DNA from: a candidate division WOR-3 bacterium
GTDB taxonomy: Bacteria; Hydrothermota; Tepidihabitantia; SM23-42; JAOAFX01
Direction of reading: 5' to 3'
Length of the DNA: 48,302 nucleotides
Assembly: GCA_039802005.1 (NCBI GenBank)
Contig: JBDRVV010000021.1
Coordinates: 1-48,302 of the forward strand
A program made the position numbers and the translations under genes. How positions within the stretch are numbered: position 1 is the stretch's first letter; each line of letters starts with the position of its first letter. The notes beneath the pieces were generated by a model. It ran no database searches. It saw only the letters and a list, made by a program, of their open reading frames with translations, and was not told where the DNA came from. Of this stretch, positions 19,643 through 24,390 are shown one piece after another.

Positions 19643-20872
19643 CTATTCTACTTCGTGATGGTGGTCGTAATCGGTGCCGGGTCCGGCTTCCATTCTCTTG
19701 CCGGTTTTTAAAAAATAGGCATAAAGTGGCGACATATTTCGTAGTTGTGCAACTATTGGTGGAAATTCATTGAGAATGTAGTCTATATCTTGCTCCGTAT
19801 TATATTTTGAAAGCACCATCAATACCGAGCCCTGGGCAACTGCCGGGTCAAGGTTTATTGCCTGCAATACATGGGACATCTTCAATGCCCTTGATGTGCA
19901 AGCGGAACCACTTGTTACATAGATTCCTTTCTGGTCTAAAAATAGTAGCATCCCTTCGCCTTCTACAAATTCAACCGAAAAGTTTACATTATTGGGTAGA
20001 CGCATTTCGGGATGACCATTCAGATATATATATTCAATCCTTTTGGGTAATTCTTCAATCAATTTTTTCTGTAACAATTCAATCTTTTTTCGGTTTATAT
20101 CCATTTCTGTGATAGCAATCTCACATGCTTTGCCAAATCCTACGATTGCTGGTATGTTTTCTGTACCTGCCCTTCTACCGGATTCCTGGATTCCACCATC
20201 AATGAGTGGGATGATACGAATTCCTTTCTTCAAATATAATGCACCTGCTCCTTTTGGACCATAAATCGTTGCACCAGCAAGACTGAGTAAGTCAACACCG
20301 AGTTCATTCACATCAACAGGTATTATGCCGGCACTGGCAACTGCATCGGTGTGGAAAAGTGCACCTGCGTTGTGCACAATTTTAGAAAGTTCTTTTATCG
20401 GCTGTATCGTACCAATTTCAGGGTTCGCATGCTGGATTGAGACAAGTATTGTATCATTTCTTAAATTTTTTTCTAACTCATCCGGAGCGATAAACCCGTA
20501 TTTATCAACCGGTAAATATGTTATCTCAAATCCTTCCTGTCCAAGTCGCTTTGCCGCCTGCAATACCGAAAAATGTTCAATACTTGAGATTATGATATGT
20601 TTGCCTTTTTGTCTCTGGGCATAGGCAACACCTTTAATCGCAAGATTATTTGATTCTGACCCGCAGGAAGTGAAGATTATTTCTTCGGGACGGGCATTTA
20701 TCAATTTTGCCACATCTGATCGAGCATTTTCAAGGACATCCTTTGCACGCTGACCCAATGAATGCATGCTCTGGGCATTGCCATAATCTTCTTTCAGAAA
20801 TGGAAGCATTGCATCAAAGACACGCTCATCAATTCTGGTTGCTGAACCATTATCAAGATAGACTTGTTTCAT
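19643..20872 (-). CDS. NifS/IscS-family protein lacking the PLP lysine
   Basis: 409 residues, class-V aminotransferase fold, clearly in the cysteine desulfurase family (SCGSESNNLAIKG, SSIEHFSVL, HANPEIGTIQPI, HTDAVAS, SGRRAGTENIPAIVGF). The persulfide loop is intact: SGSACTS with Cys325. However, the PLP Schiff-base motif S-A/G-H-K is replaced by LAGATIYGPKG, with Thr202 where Lys should be. The substrate-carboxylate Arg is Leu351 (GSVLMVLS), and the Gln after HTDA is Ala. Ordinary desulfurase chemistry is therefore unlikely; a scaffold or sulfur-carrier role is inferred. Archaeoglobus fulgidus IscS is a known lysine-less relative. The C-terminus is DYDHHHEVE, a possible metal site. It is the last gene of the sulfur-relay operon. 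Confidence 0.85.
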   Translation of the reverse strand: MKQVYLDNGSATRIDERVFDAMLPFLKEDYGNAQSMHSLGQRAKDVLENARSDVAKLINARPEEIIFTSCGSESNNLAIKGVAYAQRQKGKHIIISSIEHFSVLQAAKRLGQEGFEITYLPVDKYGFIAPDELEKNLRNDTILVSIQHANPEIGTIQPIKELSKIVHNAGALFHTDAVASAGIIPVDVNELGVDLLSLAGATIYGPKGAGALYLKKGIRIIPLIDGGIQESGRRAGTENIPAIVGFGKACEIAITEMDINRKKIELLQKKLIEELPKRIEYIYLNGHPEMRLPNNVNFSVEFVEGEGMLLFLDQKGIYVTSGSACTSRALKMSHVLQAINLDPAVAQGSVLMVLSKYNTEQDIDYILNEFPPIVAQLRNMSPLYAYFLKTGKRMEAGPGTDYDHHHEVE

Positions 20873-20874
20873 TT

Positions 20875-21381
20875 TTATTTTAAAAGGCAGGTTTTAAGGT
20901 CTTTGCTTGATAGACACTTTTTGAGGTTATTCAAACGGCATATATCTGATTGAGTTTCTTTTATCAATTTATTGATAATTTTCAATTCCTGCTTGCGGAC
21001 GAAATTTTTCATTTCATAAAGTATTAGTAGAGAATCTTTTTCATATTCAATCGCGGTGTCTACTGCATCGGCATTCGTTTTTATCTTTTTCAGTAAGTCT
21101 TTCTTTTTCACATTATTGAACTTATGCTTTTTAAGTAACGCCTGAACATACATAGAATACTCATCCGGATATAACTCAAAAGGCTGGCAGACTTCAATCT
21201 TTTTGAGAATCTCCTGTAATTCATTTAATTGTTTCTCTTCTCTATCAGCAAGCCATTTGAAGGTCTCTTTTACATCGCTTGACTTCGTTCTTTTTGCTAC
21301 TTTCTTATAAAACTCAAGTCCTCTTTTCCTTGCTTCAATACTTATTTCAATCACTTCGCTTGCACAGAAAAGATTTGCCAT
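20875..21381 (-). CDS. ferritin-like/rubrerythrin-related four-helix protein
   Basis: 168 residues, all helical. EVIEISIEARKRGLEFYKKVAKRT, WLADREEKQLNELQEIL and AIEYEKDSLLILYEM match the helices of the ferritin-like (rubrerythrin/DUF2202-type) diiron fold. The usual ExxH reads EEKQ, so one histidine ligand may be missing. There is no rubredoxin domain; several cysteines occur (C6, and a C-terminal set in SDICRLNNLKKCLSSKDLKTCLL). It lies 2 bases from the IscS-like gene and 9 bases from the hemerythrin gene, so all three are probably cotranscribed. Expected role: oxygen or peroxide protection or metal handling (inference). Confidence 0.65.
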   Translation of the reverse strand: MANLFCASEVIEISIEARKRGLEFYKKVAKRTKSSDVKETFKWLADREEKQLNELQEILKKIEVCQPFELYPDEYSMYVQALLKKHKFNNVKKKDLLKKIKTNADAVDTAIEYEKDSLLILYEMKNFVRKQELKIINKLIKETQSDICRLNNLKKCLSSKDLKTCLLK

Positions 21382-21390
21382 AAATCCTCC

Positions 21391-22608
21391 CTATAATAAC
21401 CTCTTCTCACCGGTTATCTTCTGAATTTCGGTAATATCCTGTGTCACTTCAAGACACCCAAGATATTCACCATTTTTATTTCTTACTGCAAAATATCTTA
21501 TGTATATCAATCTTCCACCCATATTAATCCAGAAATCTGCTGAATCTCTTTTTTTGTTTCTGAAATCCTCAAGGATTTGATTGACCACATGGACACTTTT
21601 TTGTGGATGACATTGTTGCACTTTTCTTCCAATCACTGCCTTGGTTCTCGTAAAAATCCGGTCTTTTGTCTGGCTAAAATATGCTACAGTGTCGTCTTTG
21701 TTAACAAATGTAATGTCAACAGGTAGTGTATTTAATGTATTTTCAAGCTCTTCAATAGTGAAACTACCCGTCTCAAGATTTACCATGCCTTCAGTCATGA
21801 TTGCTCTCCCTTCACCGGTGGGTGTTGAGGCTTTATCGCCTACATCCGGTGTAAAACAACAATACCCAATTTCATCAAATTGTTTCTTAGCCTCTTGCCA
21901 TTCTTCTTCATTGATAACTTTCATTGCAGTAGGAAATAGAATGTTATTCTCTTTATAAAAATGGCTTGCCAGCATTTCATTGATATTCATTCCTGTTTTT
22001 TCAATTTTTTGGACAAATTCTCTATAATCTAAAACCTCTTTCTTTTCAAGTATAGCGTAAAATTCTTTTTTCATTTCTCTGATTTTATCATGCTCTGTCC
22101 ACATAATCGCAGGTGGTTGGGTAATACCATGTTTTTCAAGATAAGGGAAGAGAACATTTTCTTCTCGCAAATAGTGTTTCTCTGAATCCTTAAAATGGGT
22201 TGCAATATGCTCCAAAAAATCAATCTGTTCTTTAATTTCTATAAATAAGCTTTTTGTTTTTAATATCTGAACTACATTTTTAATTTCAGCAGCATAGGAT
22301 AGCAATAATTTATGTTCTTCCATTAGTATGTTGATTGGATGTCCACTTGGTGCAATAGGTTTTTCTTTTTCAAGGGATTCTTTAAACATTGCAATATGAA
22401 CATCACAGAGTTTGTGGATTTCTTCAACAGACATACCTTCTTTAATGAGTTCTTCTTCAATTTTGGCGATTTCTTCAGCAGTCACACCCTTAACGATATC
22501 AGCAAATTTTTTCTTTACTTCTTCAAGGTTAGCCCCGCTATGCAGTTGCTTTATTATTTCTTTTATTTGCTCTTTCTTTTCTTTGTTTTTACCGAATATT
22601 TCACTCAT
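21391..22608 (-). CDS. DUF438-hemerythrin-PAS protein
   Basis: 405 residues, cytoplasmic. Residues about 10-80 match the DUF438 region (IIKQLHSGANLEEVKKKFAD ... EIHKLCDVHIAMFK). The next 150 residues form a hemerythrin-like HHE domain with GHPINILMEEHKLL, HIATHFKDSEKHYLREENVLFPYLEKHG, EHDKI and LASHFYKENNILFP, giving a set of diiron ligands. The C-terminal 120 residues form a PAS domain (LNTLPVDITFVNKDDTVAYF ... GCLEVTQDITEIQ). Probable sensor of O2, NO or redox state. The frame opens 7 codons further into the hairpin repeat (GTG at 22629), but the ATG at 22608 has the Shine-Dalgarno GGAAGGAG and is chosen. Confidence 0.88.
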   Translation of the reverse strand: MSEIFGKNKEKKEQIKEIIKQLHSGANLEEVKKKFADIVKGVTAEEIAKIEEELIKEGMSVEEIHKLCDVHIAMFKESLEKEKPIAPSGHPINILMEEHKLLLSYAAEIKNVVQILKTKSLFIEIKEQIDFLEHIATHFKDSEKHYLREENVLFPYLEKHGITQPPAIMWTEHDKIREMKKEFYAILEKKEVLDYREFVQKIEKTGMNINEMLASHFYKENNILFPTAMKVINEEEWQEAKKQFDEIGYCCFTPDVGDKASTPTGEGRAIMTEGMVNLETGSFTIEELENTLNTLPVDITFVNKDDTVAYFSQTKDRIFTRTKAVIGRKVQQCHPQKSVHVVNQILEDFRNKKRDSADFWINMGGRLIYIRYFAVRNKNGEYLGCLEVTQDITEIQKITGEKRLL

Positions 22609-22620
22609 TATAACTCCTTC

Positions 22621-22660
22621 CACCCTCACCTTGTCCTCTCCCTCAAGGGAGAGGAAAGCC
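22621..22660. repeat. GC-rich hairpin repeat within operon
   Basis: CACCCTCACCTTG, then stem CCTCTCCC (22635-22642) / GGGAGAGG (22647-22654) with loop TCAA. On the minus strand it reads hairpin, then CAAGGTGAGGGTG, ending 12 bases before the DUF438 start codon. It separates the dsr/tus genes from the hemerythrin-ferritin-IscS part of the cluster. Confidence 0.8.
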
Positions 22661-22679: not shown

Positions 22680-22940
22680 CTATATCGTTACTGTTCTGTT
22701 ATAAGCAAAAAATAAATCAACAAGTCTATCATAATCAAGTGTCTCCCAATCCGTCTCAATACCGCGTGCTTCTAAATCTGCTTTTAATACATACTTTTGA
22801 CAATCCAGTTCTACTTTATGTTTAGCAATATAAACTCCATTATGAATAAAGACAATACAATCTGATTTATCTATTAATTTTTTTACGAAATTTATATTTT
22901 GGTCGTTCGGAGTTTGGCTAAAAAGATAAAGGGTTTTCAT
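22680..22940 (-). CDS. DsrH/TusB-like sulfur relay protein
   Basis: 86 residues. It starts MKTLYLFSQTPND, has DCIVFIHNGVYIAKH (24-41), KADLEARGIE and the terminal DYDRLVDLFFAYNRTVTI, the layout of the DsrH/TusB family. Cysteines at 28 and 47. DsrH joins DsrE and DsrF in a hexameric sulfur-transfer complex. The gene starts 3 bases after dsrF ends. Confidence 0.8.
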   Translation of the reverse strand: MKTLYLFSQTPNDQNINFVKKLIDKSDCIVFIHNGVYIAKHKVELDCQKYVLKADLEARGIETDWETLDYDRLVDLFFAYNRTVTI

Positions 22941-22943
22941 AAT

Positions 22944-23294
22944 TCAAAATGTCAACACAACATCAGCAGTATCAATCTTTTCTTTTAATTGTGCTATAGA
23001 TATGACATTTGTAGACACAAGTTCTTCAATTTTAATGTTCCTTTCTTCAATTGAATCCTTATCAAGAAACAGATTTATGTTGTATTCGGCAATATTTTTG
23101 TAAACTTCTGCGATTGGTTTCATCTGGAGTTTTTCTGGGGATTGATTTTTTATTGCTGAATAAACACCGTCACCGATTAGTATTAAATCGACCACTGTAT
23201 CTGAGAATGCTAATCCTAAACCAGCGCGGAACGCCTCAGCATTGACTGATGAGCCATAAGGTGGTTTTGTGCTTAATATAACTACTTTTTTCAT
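22944..23294 (-). CDS. DsrF/TusC-like sulfur relay protein
   Basis: 116 residues. KKVVILSTKPPYGSSVNAEAFRAGLGLAF is the diagnostic N-terminus of the DsrF/TusC family, followed by VDLILIGDGVYSAI. It contains no cysteine at all, so like other DsrF proteins it is probably structural. Its ATG overlaps the end of the dsrE-like gene by 4 bases, indicating coupling. Confidence 0.82.
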   Translation of the reverse strand: MKKVVILSTKPPYGSSVNAEAFRAGLGLAFSDTVVDLILIGDGVYSAIKNQSPEKLQMKPIAEVYKNIAEYNINLFLDKDSIEERNIKIEELVSTNVISIAQLKEKIDTADVVLTF

Positions 23295-23662
23295 TGGTCA
23301 ATTCCAAAACTTATAAATCGGTCACATTCTTCAATCATTTCAGCCAGTGTTGCAATACCGGTCAGTTTTGTTCCTTCTATGACATTTTCACGAAATAACC
23401 CACGAAAGTGTGCACAGTCACCACAGGCAACAATCTTCGCTCCTAAATCAGCGAGTTCCTTCATCATGGATGGGATGTGCCTTTCACCTGGTGATTTTAT
23501 ATTTTTGTTTAATGCGATCACACCATCAAGATAAAGAAAGATATCAACATTAATACCTTTTTCAATCGCTGCCTTGCTCAAATGATAGACAGTATCCAGA
23601 TGTTCAAATGTATACGGTCCACCAATGACAAGAAAACCGATTCTTTTATTCTGTTTTTCCAT
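23291..23662 (-). CDS. DsrE/TusD-like sulfurtransferase
   Basis: 123 residues, DsrE/DsrF/TusD fold: IGFLVIGGPYTFEHLDTVYHLSKAAIEKG, then VDIFLYLDGVIALN. The probable sulfur-carrying cysteines are Cys80 and Cys83 in KIVACGDCAHFRG, within the family active-site loop. With the DsrF- and DsrH-like neighbours it should form the DsrEFH/TusBCD complex. It starts 4 bases after the dsrE2 gene. Confidence 0.83.
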   Translation of the reverse strand: MEKQNKRIGFLVIGGPYTFEHLDTVYHLSKAAIEKGINVDIFLYLDGVIALNKNIKSPGERHIPSMMKELADLGAKIVACGDCAHFRGLFRENVIEGTKLTGIATLAEMIEECDRFISFGIDQ

Positions 23663-23666
23663 AATT

Positions 23667-24146
23667 TTAAATAAAAAGTGTTATCTGCGCTTTTGAGGCA
23701 TTTTCAAGATATGTCGCCACTCCGACCACGCCTTTTAGCCCATCAATCAGTTCTTCTTTTTTCAAACCCATCACATTCATTGACATTTCACAGGCATAAA
23801 GATTCACACCAAGTTGTATTGCTATGTCAATGAGTTCGGGTAATGATGCAACCTTCTTTTTCTTCATCACATCCTTCATCATATTCGTTCCTATACCCAA
23901 CATATTCATTTTGGATAATGCAAGATTGTCAGCGCCTTTTGGTAACATCATCCCGAACATTTTCTCAATAAGTGATTTTCCTTTGACCTTTACCCCTTTT
24001 TTCCGCAAGGCACTCAGACCCCAGAAGGTGAAGAACATATCAACCTCCATTCCTGAGGCTGCAGCACCTGTGCCAATAATAAATGCGGCAAGGCATTTAT
24101 CAAGTTCACCGCTGAATACAATTATTGATACCCTGTCTTTAGCCAT
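23667..24146 (-). CDS. DsrE2-type sulfur carrier
   Basis: 159 residues, DsrE/DsrF/DrsH superfamily. RVSIIVFSGELDKCLAAFII at the N-terminus, MEVDMFFTFWGLSALRK, and the conserved cysteine Cys119 in NLYACEMSMNVMGL, which carries persulfide in DsrE2 proteins. Its Met- and Lys-rich middle is usual for this group. In lithotrophs DsrE2 works with TusA, which here is the next gene upstream. It is sometimes labelled peroxiredoxin-like in databases, but there is no thioredoxin fold. Confidence 0.85.
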   Translation of the reverse strand: MAKDRVSIIVFSGELDKCLAAFIIGTGAAASGMEVDMFFTFWGLSALRKKGVKVKGKSLIEKMFGMMLPKGADNLALSKMNMLGIGTNMMKDVMKKKKVASLPELIDIAIQLGVNLYACEMSMNVMGLKKEELIDGLKGVVGVATYLENASKAQITLFI

Positions 24147-24156
24147 TTTACTCCTT

Positions 24157-24390
24157 TCACTTTGTTTTTTGAATATATGCCTTTATTTCTTCAGCCCCTT
24201 CTTTAATTTCAATCAATTTTTGTTCGGTCTTTCTGCACCAGGCTTCGACATCAGGCACAAAAGAAGGGTCGGATGCTACAACTTCAATAATTTCGCCAAT
24301 TTTCATTTCTTTCATAGCCTGGGACAACTTCACAATTGGCATCGGACAGGAAAGCCCCCTGGCATCAAGAGTTTTTGTTATATTTTCCAT
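24157..24390 (-). CDS. tusA: TusA-family sulfur carrier
   Basis: 77 residues. KTLDARGLSCPMPIVKLSQAMKEM contains the CPxP motif with the persulfide Cys15. TusA passes sulfur from a cysteine desulfurase to TusBCD/DsrEFH or to molybdenum-cofactor and tRNA-thiolation enzymes. It is the first gene of the operon, with a strong promoter and a short leader containing CGAGG. Spacing to dsrE2 is 10 bases. Confidence 0.93.
   Translation of the reverse strand: MENITKTLDARGLSCPMPIVKLSQAMKEMKIGEIIEVVASDPSFVPDVEAWCRKTEQKLIEIKEGAEEIKAYIQKTK

Follow-up and report, generated by a model that had tools for sequence, protein, structure and literature searches.

ISC-type iron-sulfur (Fe-S) cluster assembly is usually considered to require a cysteine desulfurase for its sulfur, with the IscS protein of Archaeoglobus fulgidus ranking as an archaeal curiosity. 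In this protein (PDB 4EB5, 4EB7 and 4HVK; D199K mutant 4R5F), whose residues were taken from the PDB alignment, the PLP-binding lysine is replaced by aspartate, the substrate-binding arginine by leucine and a glutamine by alanine, with the persulfide cysteine being kept. It is reported to be devoid of desulfurase activity (PMC7585200), and its complex, which is drawn with PLP, has a [2Fe-2S] cluster held by three IscU cysteines and Cys321 of IscS (PMC9769115). IscS1 of Methanosarcina acetivorans has also been described as being without the catalytic lysine and suggested to be A. fulgidus-like (PMC7585200), so that the pairing of an inactive IscS with IscU is already known from the former organism and suggested for the latter. 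Two further papers cite a minimal iron-sulfur (MIS) system of anaerobes, MisS/MisU, as a two-protein IscS-IscU system (PMC12442378, PMC9973013). In Methanococcus maripaludis Fe-S synthesis is fed by sulfide, with no desulfurase.

Here we describe a bacterial counterpart encoded by a contig of 48,302 nucleotides from a candidate division WOR-3 bacterium (hereafter the window, meaning this entire stretch). It shares with A. fulgidus IscS the loss of all three of the above residues and the retention of the cysteine; its likeness to M. acetivorans IscS1/IscU1 concerns the published description of the latter, and that to MisS/MisU, as a two-protein system of anaerobes, follows the account of the papers citing them. 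Our literature search recovered no account of a bacterial lysine-less IscS; an earlier description is possible, Marinoni 2012, Yamanaka 2013, Pagnier 2014 and Garcia 2022 having been available through citations only. The bacterial breadth of the family, a signature in its IscU, its linkage to sulfur carriers and a zinc-ribbon partner all appear to be new.

An IscS homologue with an altered active site

The gene and the positions considered below are as follows:

19643..20872, minus strand: lysine-less IscS/NifS homologue of 409 residues, defined by its ORF, profile matches, alignment and an AlphaFold2 model
20336..20338, minus strand: codon GCC for Ala179, at the position of Gln183 near PLP O3' (window codon and alignment)
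20267..20269, minus strand: codon ACG (reverse complement) for Thr202, at the position of the Schiff-base Lys206 (window codon and alignment)
19898..19900, minus strand: codon TGC for Cys325 in the loop SGSACTS, the persulfide or cluster-ligand cysteine (window codon and alignment)
19820..19822, minus strand: codon TTG for Leu351, at the position of the substrate-carboxylate Arg356 (window codon and alignment)
19646..19723, minus strand: C-terminal tail of residues 384-409 carrying the motif GKRMEAGPGTDYDHHH, a conserved feature of the subclade to which the window protein belongs

The reference residues follow what we take to be the sequence and numbering of Escherichia coli IscS. The frame runs intact from ATG to stop over 409 codons with no internal stop codon, and the codons and alignment bear out the three substitutions, as well as the retained fold and SGSACTS loop, that a preliminary description of this DNA had proposed. 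Additionally, Ala201 occupies the position of His205 of E. coli IscS, and Cys325 pairs with Cys321 of A. fulgidus IscS. His100, Asn150, Asp176, Ser197, Thr237 and Cys325 are retained, the E. coli equivalents thus preserved including His104, Asn155, Asp180, Thr243 and the persulfide cysteine. Profile searches recovered a match to PF00266 (Aminotran_5; 272 bits), placing the protein in the IscS fold of the fold-type I, class-V aminotransferases. Of the two more specific models only the broad subfamily NF002806 was passed (307.9 versus 304 bits), with the score against the NifS equivalog TIGR03402 (505.9 bits) lying under its cut-off of 530.75. Hence, the protein shares its fold and cysteine loop with canonical NifS/IscS (TIGR03402, E. 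coli IscS and a second copy in the window genome) but differs in being without the lysine, the arginine and the histidine preceding the lysine, and in falling under the equivalog cut-off.

The AlphaFold2 model (mean pLDDT 90.3, with the cysteine loop and tail below 50) is closest to IscS/NFS1 structures, superimposing on A. fulgidus IscS (4eb5) with an rmsd of 1.1 Å over 377 residues (Z 56.2, 48% identity), and human NFS1 equals the latter as a match by Z. The histidine-bearing tail noticed earlier is real and constitutes a conserved subclade motif, GxRxxAGPGTDYEHxH, in which G391 and R393 are present in 33/33 members, AGPGTDY in 28-31/33, and H404 and H406 in 24/33; its location corresponds to the region in which other IscS proteins come close to IscU. 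The AGPGTDYEHxH portion has been lost or altered in some members, namely two from Endomicrobiaceae (L040:5992-7203 and L039:5983-7224) and one from WOR-3 (L099).

The absence of the catalytic residues might by itself be explained by a decaying paralogue or an assembly error. However, two congeneric genomes (84-87% identity) share both Thr202 and Leu351, a sister-genus genome (69% identity) has Gln and Val at these positions, and all 69 non-redundant lysine-less relatives recovered are without the arginine too, which together rule out a sequencing error, including one at codons 199-202 that the preliminary description had named as its refuter. Comparison with the two congeners yields a dN/dS of about 0.05 (0.075/1.66 and 0.104/2.28, with dS near saturation). 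This, along with the congeners themselves and the surrounding clade, rules out a lone pseudogene, and an independent recent loss within the genus is likewise ruled out by the whole surrounding clade being without the lysine. Given the intact frame, the low dN/dS, the invariant cysteine loop and the retention of the gene across several phyla, decay or misassembly is already contradicted and has a negligible probability.

Coupled loss of catalytic residues and conservation of the cofactor cradle

Homologues similar to the window protein were collected, and thinning at 95% identity left 131 non-redundant sequences. Both the lysine and the arginine are present in 62 of them and both absent in the other 69, with no intermediates, a perfect coupling that is valid for this similarity-based sample. 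Thus, the equivalents of Lys206 and of Arg356 each occur in 0/69 members of the lysine-less set versus 62/62 canonical proteins, and these two positions, together with the histidine preceding the lysine, drift over many residues in the former. Conversely, the persulfide cysteine, the PLP-stacking histidine and the pyridine-nitrogen aspartate (Asp180) are each conserved in 69/69, and the equivalents of His104, Asp180 and Thr243 are nearly invariant. A PDB chain (9wfy_A), one of several cysteine desulfurase variants whose structures were solved as a series, has Leu in place of the PLP lysine and Val in place of the substrate arginine, the very pair of residues lost in the natural clade.

A search of the lysine-less rows for a substitute lysine found none that was invariant or even at least 90% conserved across all of them. 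Lys207 of the GPKG motif also occurs in canonical proteins, and some lysine-less members have R or Q there. With no lysine invariant across these proteins, there is no obvious replacement for the PLP lysine of the kind, another lysine in the PLP pocket, that had been named as potentially refuting the earlier reading. Two candidate markers were discarded: the SPL motif, taken as an indicator of IscU docking, lacked discriminating power, and an HK..GPKG DNA pattern for canonical copies proved incomplete and was left out of the counts because those of two families read HK..APKG.

Because the stacking histidine and the pyridine-nitrogen aspartate are conserved throughout the set, lysine-less IscS probably still binds its cofactor non-covalently. 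Such conservation would fit PLP or PMP being held for structural reasons, with the cysteine still in use and catalysis absent. It speaks against a purely structural role of the protein, in which the PLP cradle (His, Asp, Thr) would not be required unless PLP or PMP were still bound. The earlier proposal that the chemistry had been dropped and the sulfur-carrying part kept is therefore supported by the coupled losses and the invariant cysteine, with the refinement that the cradle has not simply been abandoned. The near-invariance of the cradle and the presence of PLP in the drawn A. fulgidus complex could also be accommodated by a slow cysteine desulfuration with non-covalent PLP and another residue serving as base. 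This appears quite unlikely, in that the substrate arginine is gone from every lysine-less member, no lysine is invariant, and A. fulgidus IscS, which carries the same substitutions, is reportedly inactive.

Phyletic spread and descent

The lysine-less proteins span WOR-3, Elusimicrobiota, Latescibacterota, Desantisbacteria, Aminicenantes, Zixibacteria, an actinobacterial MAG and Archaeoglobaceae, i.e. they form a widespread family present in many anaerobes rather than a peculiarity of the window genome. In a quick tree of the IscS homologues built from the unmasked alignment, all lysine-less rows fall on one side of a single branch (SH-aLRT 92). A second quick tree, built from more rows and after masking of the four trait columns, recovered two strongly supported lysine-less groups, one A. 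fulgidus-like with 12 rows and the other bacterial with 53, and left the canonical rows lying between them unresolved. As a tree forced to contain a single lysine-less clade scores better than the free tree found (by 15.1 lnL units; AU p 0.786), a single ancestral loss of the lysine is compatible with the data, though not proven by them. The window protein itself lies in a subclade of 31-37 rows together with Elusimicrobiota. The archaeal A. fulgidus IscS differs from it in belonging to the smaller group and in being without the AGPGTDYEHxH tail. The alignment and tree that had been suggested as a check are thus compatible with a loss shared by a clade that includes A. fulgidus IscS.

The probable IscU partner and a possible zinc-ribbon component

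In 40/54 loci the lysine-less gene is followed, at a distance of no more than 1.5 kb, by a gene for IscU, and in the Archaeoglobaceae IscU is encoded adjacent to the relatives of A. fulgidus IscS. In an IscU tree the 57 lysine-less-linked proteins (excepting the long-branched L073) and nine unlinked ones form one group that includes no canonical-linked IscU. This group is distinguished by a signature, HCSN, in which the His-Cys-Ser at the third cluster ligand is immediately followed by an asparagine (57/57 lysine-less-linked versus 0/39 canonical-linked proteins), and by an alanine three residues beyond that asparagine (56/57 versus 0/39). The search for iscU elsewhere in the window genome, also suggested earlier, found a single copy, on contig C17 and unlinked to the window gene. 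Since the C17 protein belongs to the lysine-less-linked group and possesses both signature residues, it probably forms a split pair with the window gene.

Many iscU genes of these lysine-less systems, including that on C17, are directly followed by a gene for a cysteine-rich double zinc-ribbon protein of about 60 residues:

L122:7097-7276, plus strand: double zinc-ribbon gene of the window genome (G000, contig C17), directly 3' of iscU

The same arrangement is seen at L126, L125, L123, L041, L016, L012, L014, L100, L101 and others, while at L109, L110, L111, L103, L118, L026, L028 and L043-L045 IscU carries the zinc ribbon as a C-terminal fusion. Within the sample the ribbon occurs only in lysine-less or unlinked loci and never beside a canonical IscS; none was detected alongside the relatives of A. 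fulgidus IscS. The protein is possibly a third assembly component, serving as an iron or electron donor. In loci from other members of the order to which the window genome belongs (L155:1465-2259, L145:1126-1881 and L160:1111-1917), the IscU adjoining the lysine-less IscS bears a C-terminal extension resembling a portion of thioredoxin reductase (TIGR01292, E 9.5e-16, residues 144-264), a possible reductase fusion for persulfide reduction.

These contextual associations suggest that the window protein is a non-desulfurase IscS functioning as an obligate IscU partner when Fe-S clusters are assembled, a reading to which we assign a probability of roughly 0.7. It accords with the earlier proposal of an acceptor, scaffold or metal-site assembly role analogous to that of A. 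fulgidus IscS, with the loss apparently shared by a clade and IscU as the partner. Against it stand the unlinked iscU of the window genome and the presence there of a canonical NifS that could itself feed IscU.

Sulfur-carrier linkage and gene neighborhoods

As the preliminary description had recognized, the gene closes a tusA-dsrE operon, being the eighth of eight closely spaced co-oriented genes. The seven preceding it, listed from the operon's first gene, are:

24157..24390, minus strand: TusA sulfur carrier with a CPMP motif, first gene of the operon (profile matches)
23667..24146, minus strand: DsrE2-type sulfur carrier (profile matches)
23291..23662, minus strand: DsrE/TusD-like protein (profile matches)
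22944..23294, minus strand: DsrF/TusC-like protein (profile matches)
22680..22940, minus strand: DsrH/TusB-like protein (profile matches)
21391..22629, minus strand: protein with DUF438, hemerythrin HHE and PAS domains
20875..21381, minus strand: ferritin-like or DUF2383-type protein (weak match, below the Pfam cut-off)

The hemerythrin/DUF438/PAS protein, which shows a weak similarity to YtfE, and the ferritin-like protein are encoded after dsrH and before the IscS homologue; conceivably, the two donate or sense iron when clusters are assembled or repaired. More generally, lysine-less iscS genes often adjoin genes for flavodiiron protein, rubrerythrin, desulfoferrodoxin, hybrid cluster protein or Fur-type regulators (L013, L018, L021, L024, L025, L027, L031 and others), constituting an oxygen/NO-stress setting, and a flavodiiron protein is encoded within 3 kb of 14/54 lysine-less versus 0/46 canonical genes.

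The window operon with its tusA, dsrE2 and dsrEFH genes and without iscU, along with the binding of TusA by IscS in E. coli (structure 3lvj), might alternatively point to a sulfur-trafficking adaptor for DsrEFH/TusA, acting for example in tRNA thiolation or sulfur metabolism rather than in Fe-S assembly. We consider this improbable, as iscU is the constant neighbor in the clade, the unlinked IscU of the window genome falls in the lysine-less-linked group, and mnmA instead accompanies the canonical copies (within 3 kb of 9/46 of these versus 1/54 lysine-less genes).

Of the 54 lysine-less genes, 20 have a TusA or DsrE2 gene within 3 kb, as against none of the 46 canonical genes (Fisher p about 1e-6, a statistic that ignores kinship among loci, which are not phylogenetically independent). 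The arrangements differ between lineages: in Archaeoglobaceae and several families of the window phylum tusA lies directly upstream in the order tusA-iscS-iscU, in Elusimicrobiota the carriers follow iscU in the order iscS-iscU-dsrE2-tusA, and in the window the full operon is present. Such linkage raises the possibility that the carriers provide the sulfur, with the proportion of linked loci, about a third, and their kinship speaking against it. The main rival, which cannot be separated from carrier supply by sequence, retains the IscU partnership but has free sulfide as the sole sulfur source and Cys325 purely as a cluster ligand, the nearby TusA and DsrE2 being unrelated sulfur-stress or trafficking genes. 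This corresponds to the published view of A. fulgidus IscS, has a parallel in the desulfurase-free, sulfide-fed Fe-S synthesis of Methanococcus maripaludis, and would be in keeping with the anaerobic lifestyle of these organisms and the absence of nearby TusA/DsrE2 in about two thirds of the lysine-less loci. Weighing against it is the linkage to these carriers in at least two different arrangements and in none of the 46 canonical copies. We regard it as a serious possibility, if on balance a doubtful one.

Other desulfurases and SUF components

A hidden SUF system was considered for the window genome (97.6% complete), but no match to SufB/D was found there, with control genomes being positive in 14/14 cases; likewise, none was found in 16/18 other sampled lysine-less carriers. 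The window genome does encode a canonical NifS, on contig C31, which has 50% identity to the window protein and adjoins mnmA. It also encodes a SufS-like protein of 486 residues (contig C2, L217:1363-2823) with a lysine and a cysteine-rich loop, which scores far under the SufS cut-off.

In G101 (82% complete), in G102 (96%) and in G159, a Geoglobus MAG, a canonical NifS query matches only the lysine-less copy, and a family-wide scan recovered, among the strong matches translated, no further member having a lysine as well as a persulfide loop. In G102 and G101 the lysine-less copy is the sole family member with a persulfide loop, and SufB/D were not found. Judging from their gene content and subject to completeness, all three genomes would assemble Fe-S clusters without a recognizable cysteine desulfurase.

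Functional implications

The coupled losses, the conserved cysteine, the clade membership, the co-inheritance with IscU and the operon are features of the sequences themselves; from them we infer the absence of activity, the role of the cysteine and the sulfur source of the window protein. As the catalytic residues have been lost and the family travels with IscU, clusters are probably built with sulfur obtained in another way. The best reading is of lysine-less IscS as an assembly platform, acting as a persulfide acceptor or cluster ligand for IscU, with the sulfur coming from carriers or sulfide. In such a mechanism the protein would retain the IscS fold and persulfide cysteine, with both the internal aldimine and the grip on the cysteine substrate being impossible, and IscU would dock onto this shell. 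Cys325, on its flexible loop, could then take sulfane sulfur from a TusA, DsrE2 or DsrEFH carrier and hand it on to IscU; alternatively, it may be the fourth ligand of a nascent [2Fe-2S] cluster supplied by sulfide, as proposed for A. fulgidus IscS. The most economical route would be one in which sulfane sulfur on TusA/DsrE2 passes to Cys325 or straight to IscU. Cysteine desulfuration in the window genome would be left to the canonical NifS beside mnmA, and perhaps also to the SufS-like protein.

More broadly, we tentatively propose, at somewhat less than even odds, that these genes represent a widespread bacterial Fe-S machine that dispenses with cysteine desulfuration at the scaffold. It would consist of an inactive IscS, an IscU with the HCSN signature and the double zinc ribbon, with TusA/DsrE2 bringing in sulfane sulfur or sulfide, and in some genomes, such as G102, which has neither a recognizable cysteine desulfurase nor SufB/D, it would be the only Fe-S system. 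If inactive IscS proteins are indeed co-inherited with a recognizable type of IscU in SUF-less genomes of many anaerobic bacterial phyla, IscS can be an assembly platform independent of its own enzyme activity. The HCSN motif of IscU would then serve as a sequence signature for finding such systems, bacterial proteins would become available to work on, and the association of TusA/DsrE2 carriers with Fe-S assembly would offer a testable connection between the two.
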